From: Pedobacter lusitanus
Lineage (GTDB): Bacteria > Bacteroidota > Bacteroidia > Sphingobacteriales > Sphingobacteriaceae
Direction: 5' to 3'
Assembly: GCF_040026395.1 (NCBI RefSeq)
Contig: NZ_CP157278.1
Coordinates: forward strand, 2,418,001 to 2,482,000
DNA length: 64,000 nucleotides
Position 1 is the first letter of the stretch, and each line of letters begins with the position of its first letter. Positions 52,928-60,904 of this stretch are shown here, piece by piece. The notes below the pieces were generated by a model that was not told where the DNA came from, did no database searches, and saw nothing but the letters and a program-made list of their open reading frames with translations. A program made the position numbers and the translations under genes.

Positions 52928-53512
52928 TTAATTGTAATCCTTATCCTTTACATTGTCTCCGAATGTCCATTCTATGATCTTTTCTATAGAATTCAGTAAT
53001 TCTATTTTCTTTTCACTGTATCCCCCTAAAACAAGATGGTTGGTGCCGGCAACAAGCAAAGTGGAAACTACGTCAAAATAACTGATACAATTATTATACC
53101 CCGGTTCCTTTATAGCCTGCATTTTTCTGTTTTGCAAACGACTTTTACCTGATTTTTTTTTTATAACCGGATTATAATCAGAGGTATTGTTCAGCACCAT
53201 CGCTTCCATTTCACAATGATTATAAAAAGATGTGAACCGCTCATTTAAAAGGTCTTTGATCAATTCCTGCATCGAAGGTGTACTCCCTTCAGAAACAGAA
53301 GGTTCTGCCAGATTATTTGTCCAGAAATTATTTTCTATGACATAACATCTTACCATCTGATTAAAATCGCCAAAATACCGGTAAATCAGGATTTTTGATA
53401 CTCCCGAAAGTTTAGCCACTTTATTAACACCTAATCCGCTGAAGCCATCTTTTTTAAGAATCACTCCTACTGCGTCCAATAACTTCCTTTTCGTATTTTC
53501 CTTATTTTTCAT
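52928..53512 (-). CDS. TetR-family transcriptional regulator
   Basis: A 194-residue regulator with HTH (about 6-52: LLDAVGVILKKDGFSGLGVN, AKLSGVSKILIYRYFGDFNQ). The C-terminal domain is not assigned. The ATG at 53512 gives MKNKENTKRKLLD, a normal TetR start; an ATG at 53551 would add 13 residues. The stretch RKMQAIKEPG near residue 145 is unusually basic. It stands alone, with a 490-bp non-coding region behind it. Confidence 0.85.
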   Translation of the reverse strand: MKNKENTKRKLLDAVGVILKKDGFSGLGVNKVAKLSGVSKILIYRYFGDFNQMVRCYVIENNFWTNNLAEPSVSEGSTPSMQELIKDLLNERFTSFYNHCEMEAMVLNNTSDYNPVIKKKSGKSRLQNRKMQAIKEPGYNNCISYFDVVSTLLVAGTNHLVLGGYSEKKIELLNSIEKIIEWTFGDNVKDKDYN

Positions 53513-54000
53513 TGGTCTATAATTGATTTTTAACAGTAATGAAGCTATCATGTACTACCGGTTATATTCATTTAAGTATGTGCTCTGCTGCACATGACGA
53601 TTTCATTGGTAGATTTTTTATTAGCAATGAAGCCTGCATGAGCGTTGCTTTTGGCAGACTCATGCAGTTTCATATACTGTTTTTCATCAGTTGTATATTG
53701 TTATTCAATGGTTATGAAGCTTGCTGCGCTTTCAGCTTTGCAGGTTTCATCAGCGCTTATTAAATAATCAGTTTTTTATCAAGTTCAGGTCACCATATTC
53801 TGCTTTAATAGTACTTTTTCAGCTGATCTCTGGTTTATCAACAAGGTATAACGGGAGACCGTAAAAGCGGAAAATTTTATATTAACCCGGTACTTTTTTA
53901 TATTAAAGGGTATATTTTCACCAAAAAAAGCTATCATTATATTAATGCTTGTATCTTTATACTGCTTAAATAAGATCTTAAACAAAAAAAAGAATAGCCT
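53513..54000. other. 488-bp non-coding interval left of the RiPP locus
   Basis: I see no convincing gene here. CTGCATGAG at 53634-53642 and CTCATGCAG at 53659-53667 form a 9-bp stem with a 16-nt loop. Short ORFs on both strands (for example minus 53572-53673 and minus 53785-54039) lack recognisable features. The right part is AT-rich and should hold the promoter of the LytTR gene. Confidence 0.6.
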
Positions 54001-54726
54001 ATGACAATGAGCTGCATTGTAATTGACGACGAACCTCATGCTATTGATGAGTTATGTGAACTGATTGCACAAGTGCCTCACTTGAATCTGGTAGAAAGTT
54101 TTTCGGATGCCAGACAGGCAATAGCCTATCTTCAGGAAGCCGAACATATAGATATCATTTTCTCTGATATCAGTATGGCCGTTCTCAATGGCATAGAAGC
54201 CGCCGAAATATTAAATAATTATTGTCATTTCCTGGTTTATGTAACCGCACACAGAAGTTTTGCTCCCGAAGCCTTTCAGGCTAAGGCAGACGGCTATCTG
54301 CTTAAACCTGTAAGCTATATGTCTTTTACCCAAAAGGTAGAAGACCTGACACTTAAATATCAGGATATCATTAAATTACAAAGAGACGAACAGCAGTTTT
54401 TATTTATTAAAGGCGGACAAAAAAGCAGTTATATTAAGATAAAATATAGTGATATTGTTTATATTGAGGCAATGCTGAATTATATCATGATTCATACGAC
54501 TACCGGTCATGAAATAACTTACATAGGTCTTAAAGCAATGGAAGATAAATTAAGAGTGATGGATATCTTTTTCAGGATAAACAAATCTATTATTATCTCT
54601 TTAAACTATCTCGATCGTGTGGATGGTAATATTGCAAGACTGGCACACGGAGAAAGTTATCAGATCGGAGACAAATACAAAAGTGTGTTTCTTGACTTTT
54701 TAAAGAAACACACTTTAAAATCATAG
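54001..54726 (+). CDS. LytTR-family response regulator
   Basis: A 241-residue regulator. The receiver (about 3-120) has DDEPHAIDELCELI and IDIIFSDISMAVLNGIEA with the phospho-acceptor aspartate near residue 59, then KPVSY. The C-terminal LytTR DNA-binding domain (about 135-235) has SDIVYIEAMLNYIMIHTTTG and FRINKSIIISLNYLDRV, the family signature. Its partner is the LytS-type kinase at 54961. Such pairs often govern peptide production in response to the peptide. It ends 18 bp before the end of the opposite-strand precursor gene. Confidence 0.93.
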   Translation: MTMSCIVIDDEPHAIDELCELIAQVPHLNLVESFSDARQAIAYLQEAEHIDIIFSDISMAVLNGIEAAEILNNYCHFLVYVTAHRSFAPEAFQAKADGYLLKPVSYMSFTQKVEDLTLKYQDIIKLQRDEQQFLFIKGGQKSSYIKIKYSDIVYIEAMLNYIMIHTTTGHEITYIGLKAMEDKLRVMDIFFRINKSIIISLNYLDRVDGNIARLAHGESYQIGDKYKSVFLDFLKKHTLKS

Positions 54727-54743
54727 GTTAATAACAATAAGGC

Positions 54744-54893
54744 TTAAGGTTTAAGTCCGGGCCAGTTTGGCGACACGGTAAAACCTCCAGTTGGATCAAC
54801 AGGGGCAGTTGGCTGACGACCTGATTGTTTTTGATTTTTGTACAAAAACAATGTTTTTTTTGTCAATGTTAGTTTTTTTCTGGTTAAACTCAT
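54744..54893 (-). CDS. Candidate RiPP precursor peptide, Cys-less, lanthipeptide-type leader
   Basis: A 49-residue ORF on the strand opposite to its neighbours. Residues 1-22 read MSLTRKKLTLTKKTLFLYKN then QK; the KKLTLTKKTL part matches the LxLxKxT[IL] leader pattern of Bacteroidota class I lanthipeptides. The C-terminal part, residues 24-49, runs SGRQPTAPVDPTGGF then TVSPNWPGLKP: rich in Pro and Gly, with three Thr and two Ser for dehydration but no Cys, so no lanthionine ring is possible. It lies between the LytTR regulator and the LytS kinase, 1.2 kb from the LanB gene. I infer it is the substrate of that enzyme. Confidence 0.62.
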   Translation of the reverse strand: MSLTRKKLTLTKKTLFLYKNQKQSGRQPTAPVDPTGGFTVSPNWPGLKP

Positions 54894-54916: not shown

Positions 54917-54960
54917 AATGTTATTCTCAAAAAAAAAACTGGGCACCTTTATTATATTAC

Positions 54961-56040
54961 ATGCTTAGATTATTATATAAAGACCTGTTAAAATCTTCAA
55001 AGGCGATTCGAATTCACCTGATATGCTGGTTCATATTTATTATTTATGAGATGAGCATTTTACAGCTCGTCACTCAGGATCTTCGACCTTTTTTGTTTTA
55101 TTTTCTATTTTACATACTCAACATTTCTACCTTTTATTTTCAGGCCTTAATCTTATTAAAACGAGGCACAACAAATACCAAAGCTGATTTCTGGCGTATT
55201 CCGCTCTTCATTATTTTAGAAATAACGGTCTATTATATTCTTTCTCTGGTAATCGGTTTTAGTCTGACAGAATTAACAATTGCCGAAGCATCTGAGGCTC
55301 TATTTAAAATGAGACCCATTGCAAGTACACTTTGGCGCGGCATATATTTCATCTTATATGGATCAGCTTATTACCTCTTGTTCAGTTATAATGACAAAAA
55401 ACGAAGAGAATTAATTCAGACCATAGAAAACGAACAATTGAAGAATGACCTGCTTCAGGCCGAACAGGATTTTCTGCGTGCACAGATTAATCCTCATTTA
55501 CTATTTAACACGTTGAGTTTTATTAAATACGCTGCAAAGAAAAAACCGGAAGAGGCTAATGAAGCTATAATGAGATTATCCGGTATCATGGGTTTTGCAT
55601 TAGAAAATAACAGCCAGACGATCCTGGTTTCCAGAGAACTGGAGCAGGTAGAAAATATCATCAAACTAAACCAGTTAAGATTCAACCATACTTTAAATAT
55701 TAATTACATTACCCGTTTAACCAACAATCAGGTTACCATTATTCCTATCATTCTGCTCACACTGGTAGAGAACATTTTTAAGCATGGCAACCTGCTGGAA
55801 AAAGAACATCCGGCAGAAATCTTTGTTGAATCAACAGATGAATATTTAACTATCAGAACCAGTAATCTGCCAAATTACGATATGAATGTAGAAAGCAGTA
55901 AAACCGGACTGGCTAATATCAGCACCAGGTTAGAGCAGTTCTATAAAAACAACTACAAATTCAGCTACACTATGGAAGATAATTTATTCAAAACAGAGCT
56001 TGTATTAAGACTTAAAGAATTAATTAAACCACGGTCTTAA
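54961..56040 (+). CDS. LytS-type sensor histidine kinase
   Basis: A 359-residue kinase with four to five hydrophobic helices (about 15-150), a coiled linker (NEQLKNDLLQAEQDFLRAQI) and a His_kinase domain with INPHLLFNTLSFIKYAA, the LytS/YehU signature with the acceptor histidine. The ATPase has PIILLTLVENIFKHG and TGLANISTRLEQFY. I placed the start at 54961 (MLRLLYKDLL), because the longer frame from 54838 overlaps the precursor gene in antisense and adds no family sequence. It pairs with the LytTR regulator. Confidence 0.88.
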   Translation: MLRLLYKDLLKSSKAIRIHLICWFIFIIYEMSILQLVTQDLRPFLFYFLFYILNISTFYFQALILLKRGTTNTKADFWRIPLFIILEITVYYILSLVIGFSLTELTIAEASEALFKMRPIASTLWRGIYFILYGSAYYLLFSYNDKKRRELIQTIENEQLKNDLLQAEQDFLRAQINPHLLFNTLSFIKYAAKKKPEEANEAIMRLSGIMGFALENNSQTILVSRELEQVENIIKLNQLRFNHTLNINYITRLTNNQVTIIPIILLTLVENIFKHGNLLEKEHPAEIFVESTDEYLTIRTSNLPNYDMNVESSKTGLANISTRLEQFYKNNYKFSYTMEDNLFKTELVLRLKELIKPRS

Positions 56041-56090: not shown

Positions 56091-58925
56091 ATGAAATTAA
56101 CGATCTCTCCAGTCAGTATTACCCGTACACCTGTATTTTCTCATCAGCAGGATTTAGGTATAGTATGGGACGAACTCAAAGCCTACATTCAGGAATCTTC
56201 TCCTTCATTTTTTGAAATGATCAAAGATTATGAATACGAAGACCTGCGGTCTTTGGAACCTAAAATCAGATTTACAATCTGGAAGTATTTTAACCGGGCA
56301 AAATTCAGGGCAACACCTTACGGAAATTTTGCAGCCTTCTCGGTTATCCCTGTCAGCAAAGAAAGCAATCCGGAACCTGTTACTTTGTCAAAGAGCCATA
56401 TTGTTCACCGTTTTATCAATTGGCAGGAAAAGGAAAATTTCAATTTTGATTCTAAATGGCTTATCCGCCATGCCGGTTTCTTAACGACCAATACCACCGC
56501 CTACATCGGAGGAGGAGAATTACGCTATATCAATACTGATAATGGCACTTTCGAACTATCTGCTATCGAAGCAGAAGAAACTACTCAATCTACCTTAAAT
56601 TATTGCCGCACCAAACGAACAGTGGAAGAAATACAGCATTTTTTACGCAACGAATACAGTTTAAGTCCGGCAATGACCAATTATTTCCTCGAGCAGCTGG
56701 TAACCTTTCAGTTGCTCATCACGAATTTTCAGCCCAATATTATCGGGCCAGATTATTATGGCCGTATTGGCTATTCACAGGCTGACAAAAAGAATGATTA
56801 TATCATTTCTGAAAGAAAAAGAATAAAAGGACAGCTATCTGAAAGAAGACTACAGATACTGGCCGAGCTCACTGAATTTCTCTCTAAACACACTCTTGTC
56901 CATTCAAGTCCGGCACTGGATGATTTCAGGCGCAGATTTGTAAAAAAATTTGAGCACAAAGAAGTTCCGCTGCAGATTGCAATGGACCCTGAAATTGGCA
57001 TAGGCTACAGGTCAATGACTATCAGCAAAGATGAGGATCAGCTAATCAGTGAACTAAAGAAAAACCGGGAACAGGAACAAACTTATAATCTGCCTTATAC
57101 TACGCTGCATCAGTTTATTCTCAACCAAATGCTCCAGCATAAAACTGTACAGCTTAATGATTTTAAAGAACCGGGAATAATTCCGCAGCATCCAATTGCT
57201 AATACAATCAGTGTATTTCTTCAATGTATAGATGAACATCTGGTTATAGGGAGTGCTGGTGGCTGTACTGCCAATTCATTATTGGGCAGGTTTTCACTGG
57301 GGAGTGAAGAAATTACCGAAATTGGCCGCAGGTTTGTCCGGATTGAGCAGGAGGCTAATCCTGGTGTATTATTCTTTGATATCGGTTATCAGATTGAAAA
57401 ACATGCCGATAACATTAACAGAAGAAAATCTATATATGATTACGAATTACCGATATTAAGCTGGTCAGAAAGTAAACATATGCTGGCGCTTGATGACATT
57501 ATGGTCAGTGTAAGAGGTGAAGAACTGCTGCTCCATTCTGTAAAATATGGTAAAAGGCTGATTCCCAAATTAGCTTCTGCCTATAACTATGCCCGTTCAG
57601 ATCTGGCAGTTTACAGATTTCTGTCAGATATACAGCACCAGGGTTTGCATTCAGGTCTGGCGTTCAGTTTATCAACCATTTTCCCGGGGCTTATTCATTA
57701 TCCCAGGGTACAGTATAAAAATGTGATCCTCTCTCCCGAAAAATGGCTGGTGCCTGAAGCTATCTGTCAGGAAACAGGAGCTGCCGCTTTAGCCGGGTTA
57801 TACGGCTGGTTGAAACACATTAATCTGCTGAAACCCTTTAAATGCGGTGACGGGGATCAGACCCTGATCTTTAACCCGGAAACAGAAGAAGACATGCAAT
57901 ATTTCCTGCTGTTTTGCCGGAATAAGGAACAGCTGTACATTGAAGAGACCTTTATCCCTGCCCGACCACAGATTACAGATGAAAATAACGAACCTTATCT
58001 TCCTGAATTCATTGTAAACCTGGAACATAAAGAACAGATCTATATGCCCTATCCGCTAAAAGGCTTATGGAATAATGAAAAGTACTTTTCCAACCTGTTT
58101 TTACCCGGAGAAGAATGGCTCTATTTTGAAATATACTGCCATACTGCTAAATCCAATTCTCTACTGCTGCATATCAGCAGGAATCTGATCACTCCGCACA
58201 GTAAAAAAATAAAGAAATGGTTCTTTATCCGCTACAATGATCCTGCCGATCATATCCGTCTGAGGTTACAGCTCAAGGACATCAAAGACGGGCATGAGCT
58301 GACGGCCGGTCTTTCTGATTTGCTTGCACCCTATATCAGCTCAGGTATCGTGGCCGATTTACAGCTTAAAATCTACAGACAGGAAACTGAACGTTATGGA
58401 TTGGAAAGAATGAACCTGGTAGAAACATGTTTTGGAATTGACAGTGATTTTGTACTGGCTGTTCTCGCCAAACCATTTCACACTAACGATCTCTATATCT
58501 TGTCCATTACATTAATCGAAAACGTATTATACCGTGCAGGCTACACCTTAGAGAAACAATTGCAGTTTGCAGAACAAATGCATACCAGTTTTGCTGCCGA
58601 ATTCCGTGTACAGACTGAAGGGGTAAAAAAGATAAATCAGAGTTATAAGGATTTTGATTTTGACAGCCTTACTATATCATTAAATAAGTTACAGCAAAAA
58701 AAAGCGGAAAATACTGAAGTCTCTTTTTTGAATAGTTTAAATGCCTGCCGGGAAACAGAGAAAAACAGTATGCTGGCAGATCTTTTTCATATGCATACCA
58801 ACAGATTTTTTCATCATGACCAGCGTATGCATGAAATGATTATGTATAATTTTCTGACTAAGCGGATAAAAATGAAGATCGGCAGATTAAAGAATTCAAA
58901 AACAATATGTTCTGATAAAATTTAA
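56091..58925 (+). CDS. Full-length lantibiotic dehydratase (LanB) with elimination domain
   Basis: A 944-residue protein. The N-terminal glutamylation part (about 1-650) has FRATPYGNFAAFSV, the conserved RxTPfG segment of NisB-type enzymes that use glutamyl-tRNA to activate Ser/Thr. The C-terminal part (about 680-930) is a thiopeptide-type/SpaB_C elimination domain with LYFEIYCH, FFIRYNDPADHIRLRLQ (arginines and histidine as in NisB) and EYGLERMNLVE-like sequence (here ETERYGLERMNLVE). The enzyme would convert Ser/Thr of the precursor to dehydroalanine/dehydrobutyrine. It follows the kinase by 50 bp. No LanC cyclase is encoded near it. Confidence 0.92.
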   Translation: MKLTISPVSITRTPVFSHQQDLGIVWDELKAYIQESSPSFFEMIKDYEYEDLRSLEPKIRFTIWKYFNRAKFRATPYGNFAAFSVIPVSKESNPEPVTLSKSHIVHRFINWQEKENFNFDSKWLIRHAGFLTTNTTAYIGGGELRYINTDNGTFELSAIEAEETTQSTLNYCRTKRTVEEIQHFLRNEYSLSPAMTNYFLEQLVTFQLLITNFQPNIIGPDYYGRIGYSQADKKNDYIISERKRIKGQLSERRLQILAELTEFLSKHTLVHSSPALDDFRRRFVKKFEHKEVPLQIAMDPEIGIGYRSMTISKDEDQLISELKKNREQEQTYNLPYTTLHQFILNQMLQHKTVQLNDFKEPGIIPQHPIANTISVFLQCIDEHLVIGSAGGCTANSLLGRFSLGSEEITEIGRRFVRIEQEANPGVLFFDIGYQIEKHADNINRRKSIYDYELPILSWSESKHMLALDDIMVSVRGEELLLHSVKYGKRLIPKLASAYNYARSDLAVYRFLSDIQHQGLHSGLAFSLSTIFPGLIHYPRVQYKNVILSPEKWLVPEAICQETGAAALAGLYGWLKHINLLKPFKCGDGDQTLIFNPETEEDMQYFLLFCRNKEQLYIEETFIPARPQITDENNEPYLPEFIVNLEHKEQIYMPYPLKGLWNNEKYFSNLFLPGEEWLYFEIYCHTAKSNSLLLHISRNLITPHSKKIKKWFFIRYNDPADHIRLRLQLKDIKDGHELTAGLSDLLAPYISSGIVADLQLKIYRQETERYGLERMNLVETCFGIDSDFVLAVLAKPFHTNDLYILSITLIENVLYRAGYTLEKQLQFAEQMHTSFAAEFRVQTEGVKKINQSYKDFDFDSLTISLNKLQQKKAENTEVSFLNSLNACRETEKNSMLADLFHMHTNRFFHHDQRMHEMIMYNFLTKRIKMKIGRLKNSKTICSDKI

Positions 58926-59036: not shown

Positions 59037-59612
59037 ATGAAACCTTCGACCAAAAATTATTACAATACTCCTTCAGTTTTGGTAAAGAGCCTGGAAGCAA
59101 TCGAAAACTTTCAGGCTGCACATAAGCTTTTTCTCAAAAAAAAAACGGAGGATTCAAGAAAATCTATGGCACATTCACTGCAAACAGTGAAGACCCTGCA
59201 GAATGAATTATCAATTCCTGACGAATCAGCAGATCAGATCAGAATTGCCTTCTTAAAGCAGGTAATTACACTCGAGCAAAACATTGAAAACATCCATAAA
59301 GATGGCCTGTATCCGGATTTATACAGAGACAGTGAATCCAGCTTCCGTTTACTGAAAGATATTCTTGACAGTTTTAAAATCTCCTTATTATCCAAAGGAG
59401 AATCTCATCCTTTTATAGAACTATCCACCAGTAACAATGAGTGGAAAGATCATGGTGTGATTGCTTTTTGCAGGGATGTAAAAAACAATCTCAACCCTAT
59501 CAGATTCAAAAGCCTGTGGGACGCACTTCAATGTTATGAAAAGAATAAAACACAACTCACCTATACTTTTGAGATTCTATCTATAACCGGAAACTTAGGT
59601 AAACAGCCATAA
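59037..59612 (+). CDS. Hypothetical protein of the RiPP locus
   Basis: A 191-residue soluble, mainly helical protein (MKPSTKNYYNTPSVLVKSLE at the start; DSFKISLLSKGESHPFIELS in the middle), with no signal peptide or transmembrane helix. I recognise no family. It lies 111 bp after the LanB gene on the same strand and may be a RiPP-associated factor. Its end, at 59612, stands directly beside the truncated ku remnant, so the stretch marks a rearrangement border. Confidence 0.65.
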   Translation: MKPSTKNYYNTPSVLVKSLEAIENFQAAHKLFLKKKTEDSRKSMAHSLQTVKTLQNELSIPDESADQIRIAFLKQVITLEQNIENIHKDGLYPDLYRDSESSFRLLKDILDSFKISLLSKGESHPFIELSTSNNEWKDHGVIAFCRDVKNNLNPIRFKSLWDALQCYEKNKTQLTYTFEILSITGNLGKQP

Positions 59613-60776: not shown

Positions 60777-60904
60777 CGTTATACATCAGTTAATGTTGAT
60801 ACGGGTTTGAAGCGGAGTTGATACGGGGTTGATACGGGTCAAGGCGTTTCAACCCCGTATCAACTCCGCTTCAAACCCGTATCAATGCTAAAGCGTGTAT
60901 AACG
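60777..60904. repeat. Large inverted-repeat element with GTTGATACGGG units
   Basis: Perfect 37-bp arms at 60796-60832 and 60849-60885 flank a 16-nt loop. Outer 9-bp arms CGTTATACA (60777-60785) and TGTATAACG (60896-60904) extend the symmetry around unpaired tracts. Within the left arm GTTGATACGGG occurs three times, at 60795, 60817 and 60828 (offsets of 22 and 11 bp). It has no ORF. It looks like a REP/MITE-type element or a strong RNA hairpin. Confidence 0.8.

Follow-up and report, generated by a model that had tools for sequence, protein, structure and literature searches.

What might a lantibiotic dehydratase make of a small peptide that contains no cysteine (Cys), and why should the gene for such a peptide lie between those of a response regulator and a sensor kinase? 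These questions are raised by a 64,000-nucleotide stretch of Pedobacter lusitanus DNA, hereafter the window (positions 2,418,001 to 2,482,000 of contig NZ_CP157278.1, assembly GCF_040026395.1, from a genome of 6.05 Mb in a single contig). Here a minus-strand gene that we call PRE is flanked by plus-strand genes for a LytTR response regulator (RR) and a LytS-type sensor kinase (HK), the latter followed by a gene for a LanB dehydratase. Across related loci, the C-terminal core of PRE and the sensor of HK are both hypervariable and change together, with RR and the kinase domain conserved. Judged from sequence comparison, the best explanation is probably that PRE encodes a peptide pheromone that is dehydrated, free of Cys and paired with a receptor kinase of its own.

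Whether PRE is a gene at all must be settled first. The open reading frame (ORF) described in the initial annotation was recovered exactly at 54744..54893 on the minus strand, encoding 49 residues, MSLTRKKLTLTKKTLFLYKNQKQSGRQPTAPVDPTGGFTVSPNWPGLKP, without a Cys. It had been described as antisense, and it does run opposite to its neighbours, but it is intergenic and antisense to no gene: it fills the gap between RR and HK, divergent from HK and convergent with RR, and the PRE and HK ORFs would overlap only if HK used a TTG at 54838. Alignment divides the peptide, at a boundary that is our choice rather than an established cleavage site, into a conserved leader, MSLTRKKLTLTKKTLFLYK (54837..54893, minus strand; mean identity 0.91 in six close cassettes), and a hypervariable core with a DPT motif (54744..54836, minus strand; mean identity 0.41 in the same six). 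The lanthipeptide character ascribed to this leader holds only as a loose likeness to the LxLxKx5L motif of Bacteroidetes class I leaders, as given in PMC7268733; no fitting NCBIfam or Pfam family was found for PRE, just weak one-member Pfam hits. This lack of a family match is the one point that speaks for a chance ORF with no product, to which we assign a negligible probability. Such an ORF was rejected in view of homologues in 97 of 145 Pedobacter genomes and of a ratio of nonsynonymous to synonymous substitution rates (dN/dS) of about 0.09 in leader codons 2-18 (10 close sequences), and it fits poorly with the tandem copies found at many loci and with the 198 database relatives at an expect value (E) ≤ 1e-3. 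These relatives are mostly Pedobacter-named and, among the 120 matches listed, readable names are hypothetical except for one odd label. Even with the single PRE sequence as query, 8 genomes beyond its own gave a match at E ≤ 8.5e-4, and 80 of the 145 Pedobacter genomes did so at E ≤ 1. Genus-wide homologues and leader constraint thus place PRE beyond chance, and it is near certain, from sequence, that PRE is a real gene with its own precursor family.

The family is concentrated in Pedobacter and its relatives. A 29-row PRE profile was used for the genus, family and order samples and a broader one for the phylum sample; the former matched the 97 Pedobacter genomes mentioned above (among the 132 good ones, 92). 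In the family sample its matches came to 98 of 399 genomes, spread over 7 of 25 genera, and in the order sample to 105 of 400 genomes, every one of them in the host's own family. The broader profile matched 4 of 375 genomes across the phylum, three of the same genus and one doubtful.

What accompanies PRE in these genomes? In the window, RR occupies 54001..54726 (plus strand; PF00072, PF04397), HK 54961..56040 (plus strand; PF06580; 359 residues from an ATG, with the NPH box at 55489-55497; the database copy, P0121, has 329 residues from a lower start), and the 944-residue LanB 56091..58925 (plus strand; PF04738, PF14028; NisB match at E 1.8e-15). Of the close LanB loci, four carry a species or strain name, either Pedobacter cryoconitis or Pedobacter sp. 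PAMC26386. The block of LytTR regulator, LytS kinase and LanB in which the initial annotation had set the ORF recurs as a cassette across the genus, and the refuting condition set beforehand, that related genomes would lack LanB-adjacent homologues, did not apply. Among 87 sequences examined, 79 carry PRE (78 loci and the window), in one to eight ORFs per locus; the remaining eight are L040, L046 and the own-genome control loci L151-L156. The RR / opposite-strand PRE / HK arrangement is found in 78 of the 79, with no HK found in L047, and LanB adjoins in 73, in either orientation. Loci L031-L050 and L091-L150 were chosen mostly by precursor matches, so that the presence of PRE in them is given by construction, unlike its being flanked by RR, HK and LanB. 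LanB is absent from the fetched stretch in six PRE loci (L041, L042, L043, L047, L049 and L121), five of which keep RR and HK, and each of their genomes also holds another PRE locus, one with LanB (L119, L137, L138, L139, L118 and L124).

Co-occurrence by genome is similarly tight. With the LanB clade delimited at E ≤ 2.2e-157, a cut-off that we chose at a gap in the match list, 95 of the 145 genomes have both PRE and the clade, 2 PRE alone, 6 LanB alone and 42 neither (Fisher p 1.8e-27, phylogeny not corrected for). Of the two PRE-only genomes, one is fragmented and holds a LanB piece and the other is 80% complete. Each of the six LanB-only genomes contains a diverged PRE-like ORF (L157-L162; E 2e-5 to 0.36, the weakest resting on position and composition), three of them between RR and HK, two beside HK and one beside RR, where no HK was found. 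These six belong to 20 loci chosen by LanB matches (L157-L176), in which a PRE-like ORF was found at E ≤ 1 in 14 and by eye or motif in L164, L165, L167 and L168; in L171 and L172 no PRE-like ORF was found.

Partnership with a LanB would ordinarily suggest a class I lanthipeptide, for which a LanB with both of its parts is present; a LanC in the cluster and a core Cys are not. Of 152 distinct precursors, 145 are Cys-free, and beyond the leader PRE is 27% Ser and Thr. The host genome encodes seven LanBs, and its four LanCs all lie within 2 kb of a LanB other than that of the cassette; tblastn searches with these four located a LanC in the fetched stretch of just one of the 79 PRE loci (L100), beside a different LanB. 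LanC is not part of the PRE cassette. An ordinary lanthipeptide served by a LanC in trans was considered in view of the four LanCs and rejected, PRE having no Cys for them to use. The proposal, made from the window alone, that LanB acts on PRE with no possibility of lanthionine formation is supported by this genus-wide pattern.

The enzyme itself appears equipped for dehydration. It has the glutamylation and elimination halves, PF04738 and PF14028 (PF14028 E 3.9e-53), and was aligned with NisB and its catalytic residues. In 73 sequences, R12, R69, R73 and R400, aligned with NisB glutamylation residues, and R723, R725, E765, R768 and H900, aligned with elimination residues, are invariant, and H902 is conserved in 97%. 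Asp121 of NisB has no clear counterpart in the alignment with the cassette LanB, a point that, together with the six PRE loci lacking an adjacent LanB, would suit an enzyme that makes no dehydroamino acids on PRE, either adding only glutamate or another residue or leaving PRE unmodified and serving otherwise. The invariant elimination-domain residues, the tight PRE-LanB co-occurrence and the second, LanB-bearing PRE locus in the genomes of all six LanB-less loci argue against this alternative, which we regard as improbable. PRE is very probably a substrate of LanB, and dehydration of Ser and Thr without lanthionine formation would be the natural expectation for its product. Two side observations concern Cys content. 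In a tandem PRE array at L137:7751-8607, four of five copies have one core Cys where sister species have Met; and an own-genome LanB/LanC cluster holds two precursors with GG leaders and 3 Cys each (L155:13293-13695, minus strand), a contrasting example of the normal class I arrangement.

If the product is a linear dehydrated peptide, to what does it owe its variable core? Covariation was analysed in the 73 of the 79 loci that have LanB, with the putative membrane sensor of HK delimited approximately, by hydropathy and domain-wise identity, at 54961..55430 (plus strand) in the window. Core and sensor are the most divergent parts of the cassette (mean distances 0.63 and 0.61, as against 0.49 for LanB, 0.40 for the leader, 0.37 for the kinase domain and 0.32 for RR), and they remain so in the 1455 pairs with a LanB distance below 0.5 (core 0.48, sensor 0.50, LanB 0.37, leader 0.27, kinase domain 0.17, RR 0.08). 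With the kinase domain, RR and LanB held constant, the partial Mantel correlation of core with sensor is 0.52 (p 0.0005), and that of core with kinase domain and with LanB 0.19 (p 0.002) and 0.03 (p 0.30), respectively. The main clade of 49 loci gives 0.55 for core and sensor (p 0.0005) and 0.09 for core and LanB (p 0.10), while cubic controls give 0.54 (p 0.001) for the former and -0.10 for the core against the 330 fastest LanB columns. A nearest-neighbour test at a LanB distance below 0.5, comprising 34 disjoint pairs, yields a partial rank correlation of 0.82 between core and sensor. Where the nearest locus by LanB and the nearest by sensor conflict, as they do for 22 overlapping focal loci, the core follows the sensor in 21 cases and LanB in none, with one tie.

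The manner in which core and sensor change together is visible in close relatives. Among 49 pairs with a LanB distance below 0.12, the sensor distance exceeds 0.3 in 36, is at most 0.15 in 7 and falls between in 6. The 36 swapped and 7 unswapped pairs, which overlap, are matched in LanB (0.086/0.085), RR (0.019/0.017) and kinase domain (0.040/0.034); the core distance is 0.36 (0.13-0.70) in the swapped and 0.05 (0-0.10) in the unswapped pairs, and the leader distance 0.14 and 0.08. A change-point fit locates a divergent block of 702-966 bp in 8 of 9 disjoint swapped pairs, with identity of 0.58-0.69 inside and 0.89-0.97 outside; one end lies -49 to +29 bp from the RR stop, the other 65-151 bp short of the NPH box of HK. 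In L092/L095 the divergent block spans only 288 bp, within the sensor region, and the two unswapped pairs profiled have no comparable block. Core, intergenic DNA and sensor are thus exchanged as a single block.

Such an exchange could also arise by hitchhiking, in which the HK sensor diversifies for some other ligand and PRE, caught in the same block, is a regulated secondary product; that other LytS kinases also have variable sensors accords with this account. It explains less readily why the sensor/kinase boundary is where the block repeatedly stops, in 8 of 9 pairs, why five loci retain RR, PRE and HK with no adjacent LanB, and why the copies in tandem arrays share a core while their leaders differ. 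In 32 multi-copy loci, core identity among copies is 0.85 and leader identity 0.79, the core being the higher in 24, an order that is reversed between loci (0.47 for the core, 0.64 for the leader). The recurring ends and the shared tandem cores favour a joint function of core and sensor over linkage, and we consider hitchhiking unlikely. From these comparisons, the PRE core is likely the cognate signal of the adjacent HK.

Taken together, these features suggest a model in which PRE is the precursor of a peptide pheromone. The conserved leader would bring the precursor to the neighbouring LanB, which would dehydrate Ser and Thr in the core; as there is neither Cys nor LanC, the product would be a ring-free peptide containing dehydroamino acids. 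Genes outside the cassette would supply the machinery that removes the leader and exports the peptide. The mature core would then bind the hypervariable membrane sensor of HK, which would signal to RR, and RR would bind repeats spaced by 21 bp between PRE and HK and raise transcription of both, resulting in autoinduction. Dehydration, cleavage, export, binding and autoinduction are steps that we infer. The initial annotation had regarded PRE as a LanB substrate, a view retained here; the likely signalling function to which the covariation points was absent from it.

Do the upstream repeats fit this role? In the window, two copies of ATATAATAA, 21 bp apart, lie upstream of PRE (54948..54977, minus strand) and form a candidate LytTR site; they overlap the HK start codon, so codon constraint may contribute to them. 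The spacing fits that of LytTR sites. Of lags 10-35 upstream of PRE, that of 21 bp scores highest both in 42 main-clade sequences (z 14.5, measured against shuffles of single bases) and in the close group (z 8.7 with 11 sequences, 13.9 with 13). In 44 of 73 loci, 8 or more of 9 bases agree at a lag of 21; the seven further lags for which this was counted gave 2 to 19 such loci. A motif of the TTTTATCT type, itself taken from the alignment, is present in at least two copies in 45 of 53 PRE upstream regions of the main clade, against a background of about 0.11 per control stretch and strand. A genome-wide regulon was also considered; with up to 3 mismatches allowed, the window repeat pattern occurs once, which points to no further targets.

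The principal competitor to a pheromone is a self-sensed bacteriocin, that is, a LanB-dehydrated antimicrobial that HK senses to induce its own production. Antimicrobials are the usual products of the LanB family, and an inducing bacteriocin would give the same covariation of core and sensor. There is precedent in NisK, described in PMC5266694 as a sensor of nisin with two membrane segments and a large extracellular domain. Against this, no immunity or ABC transporter gene was recognised as belonging regularly to the cassette, whose four genes recur without one in partly annotated surroundings, and in six loci, five of which have RR and HK, PRE comes with no LanB in the stretch fetched. We hold this account to be unlikely, though not far-fetched, and favour signalling by a pheromone.

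Several results nonetheless weigh against the pheromone model and its supporting covariation. The Mantel and pair tests remove phylogeny incompletely, and in the 34 pairs the core also correlates with the kinase domain (0.59) and RR (0.48). Core and sensor are physically linked in the exchanged block, and linkage alone might tie both. Variable sensors are common among LytS kinases: of 30 control loci, 16 gave a usable ORF, and the two groups of at least three that were compared, in six close genomes, have sensor/kinase identities of 0.70/0.96 and 0.66/0.79, as against 0.55/0.83 for the cassette HK in the same genomes. We therefore rejected sensor variability alone as proof, and the argument rests on covariation with the peptide. 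A neat division, in which the leader follows LanB and the core the sensor, was likewise abandoned. It holds only in the Mantel analysis of 73 loci (leader-LanB 0.16, p 0.004; leader-sensor 0.06, p 0.10) and fails in the main clade of 49 (leader-LanB -0.02), in the 34 pairs (leader-sensor 0.37, about equal to leader-LanB at 0.36) and in the 22 focal loci, where the leader follows the sensor in 14 and LanB in 2, with 6 ties. The leader moves partly with the exchanged block, and we accordingly claim the core-sensor link and not a clean leader-LanB link. One Cys is carried by the remaining 7 of the 152 precursors and, near the C-terminus, by three of the six diverged ORFs in L157-L162. In six deep-branching loci, the 21-bp lag falls short of significance (z 1.9, equal to that of lag 34); a claim that the repeats occur in all groups was withdrawn, as the z of 4.6 for this third group had included L034 and L035 of the close group. 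The TTTTATCT-type motif is found in 0 of 53 LanB upstream regions of the main clade, on which account co-regulation of LanB through it was rejected, and neither an exporter nor a protease could be recognised among the cassette genes.

A further system in the same genome bears on the specificity of the covariation. The LanB_e locus (L156:13332-13490, plus strand, near 5.707 Mb) combines a LanB, an RR and an HK with a small ORF, as do 15 related loci (L227-L241), and the small ORF is divergent from the LytS kinase in 16 of 16. Twelve of these ORFs have an LKLELTPVYQ-like leader and four another leader, and 15 of 16 are Cys-free from the chosen start. Covariation there, in 12 loci, is not specific and also counts against the model (core-sensor 0.44, core-LanB 0.56, leader-sensor 0.46). 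The third repeat group, the siding of the leader and the Cys in three diverged ORFs slightly lowered our confidence in the signal and the pheromone; on balance, we incline to the view that acting as a pheromone is the main role of PRE.

How does the cassette compare with known systems? The agr (AgrBDCA) and ComQXPA systems are the peptide quorum sensing systems of Bacillota, in which peptide core and sensor are exchanged as alleles known as pherotypes. Like them, the cassette unites in one locus a small precursor, a modifying enzyme, a polytopic sensor kinase and a regulator (LytTR in agr), and its core and sensor covary as exchangeable alleles, with linkage not separated from function; the pattern of block exchange is that of agr and comQXP. 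Unlike them, it employs a LanB dehydratase in place of the AgrB protease or the ComQ isoprenyl transferase, keeps this enzyme outside the exchanged block, has its precursor gene between RR and HK but on the other strand, and resides in a Gram-negative member of the Bacteroidota. PEARL enzymes are aminoacyl-tRNA ligases of the LanB fold that are not known to have an elimination domain; they share the N-terminal LanB fold with the cassette enzyme, which has PF14028 and so falls outside the PEARL definition. The nisin system (NisB/NisK/NisR) also joins a LanB-processed ribosomal peptide to a two-component system, but nisin is an antibiotic with lanthionine rings made via LanC, whereas the cassette has no Cys, no LanC and a kinase of the LytS type. 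Bacteroidetes class I lanthipeptides, such as the pinensins and PedA15 of Pedobacter lusitanus, share with the cassette the phylum, a LanB and a Lys/Leu-rich leader; they carry Cys and LanC, and the PRE cassette carries neither.

No description of the PRE cassette was found in the titles and abstract openings of the literature covered, which excluded subscription papers on Pedobacter lanthipeptides, nor is it described in the accessible parts of PMC10352776, PMC7268733, PMC10609062, PMC12181424, PMC12328550 and PMC11251773. As set out in PMC7268733, an extensive survey of lanthipeptides took LanC as its starting point and dropped ORFs without a core Cys, a design by which PRE-type loci can be missed. 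If our reading is correct, Gram-negative Bacteroidota would possess dedicated ribosomal peptide quorum sensing with pherotypes, and LanB would gain a role in the synthesis of ring-free signals. We are moderately inclined to a broader picture, in which Pedobacter and its relatives would use a lantibiotic dehydratase for ring-free pheromones, with allele-matched LytS kinases, exchangeable pherotypes and a second, paralogous LanB system. The natural allele pairs at PRE loci would provide ready-made specificity controls.

Other features of the window and genome can be noted briefly. Beyond RR lies a TetR-type gene (52928-53551, minus strand). On the other side, a gene for a 191-residue protein of no clear family (59037-59612, plus strand) adjoins LanB and is kept at 75-91% identity in all 10 fetched loci of the same gene order. 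A long inverted repeat around gatacgggtttgaagcggagttgatacgggg was noticed by eye at 60795-60890. Elsewhere in the genome, near 1.976 Mb, a small Cys-free ORF with a DPTT motif (L153:5953-6189, plus strand) lies just before an HK and LanB_a, with which it possibly constitutes a third system.
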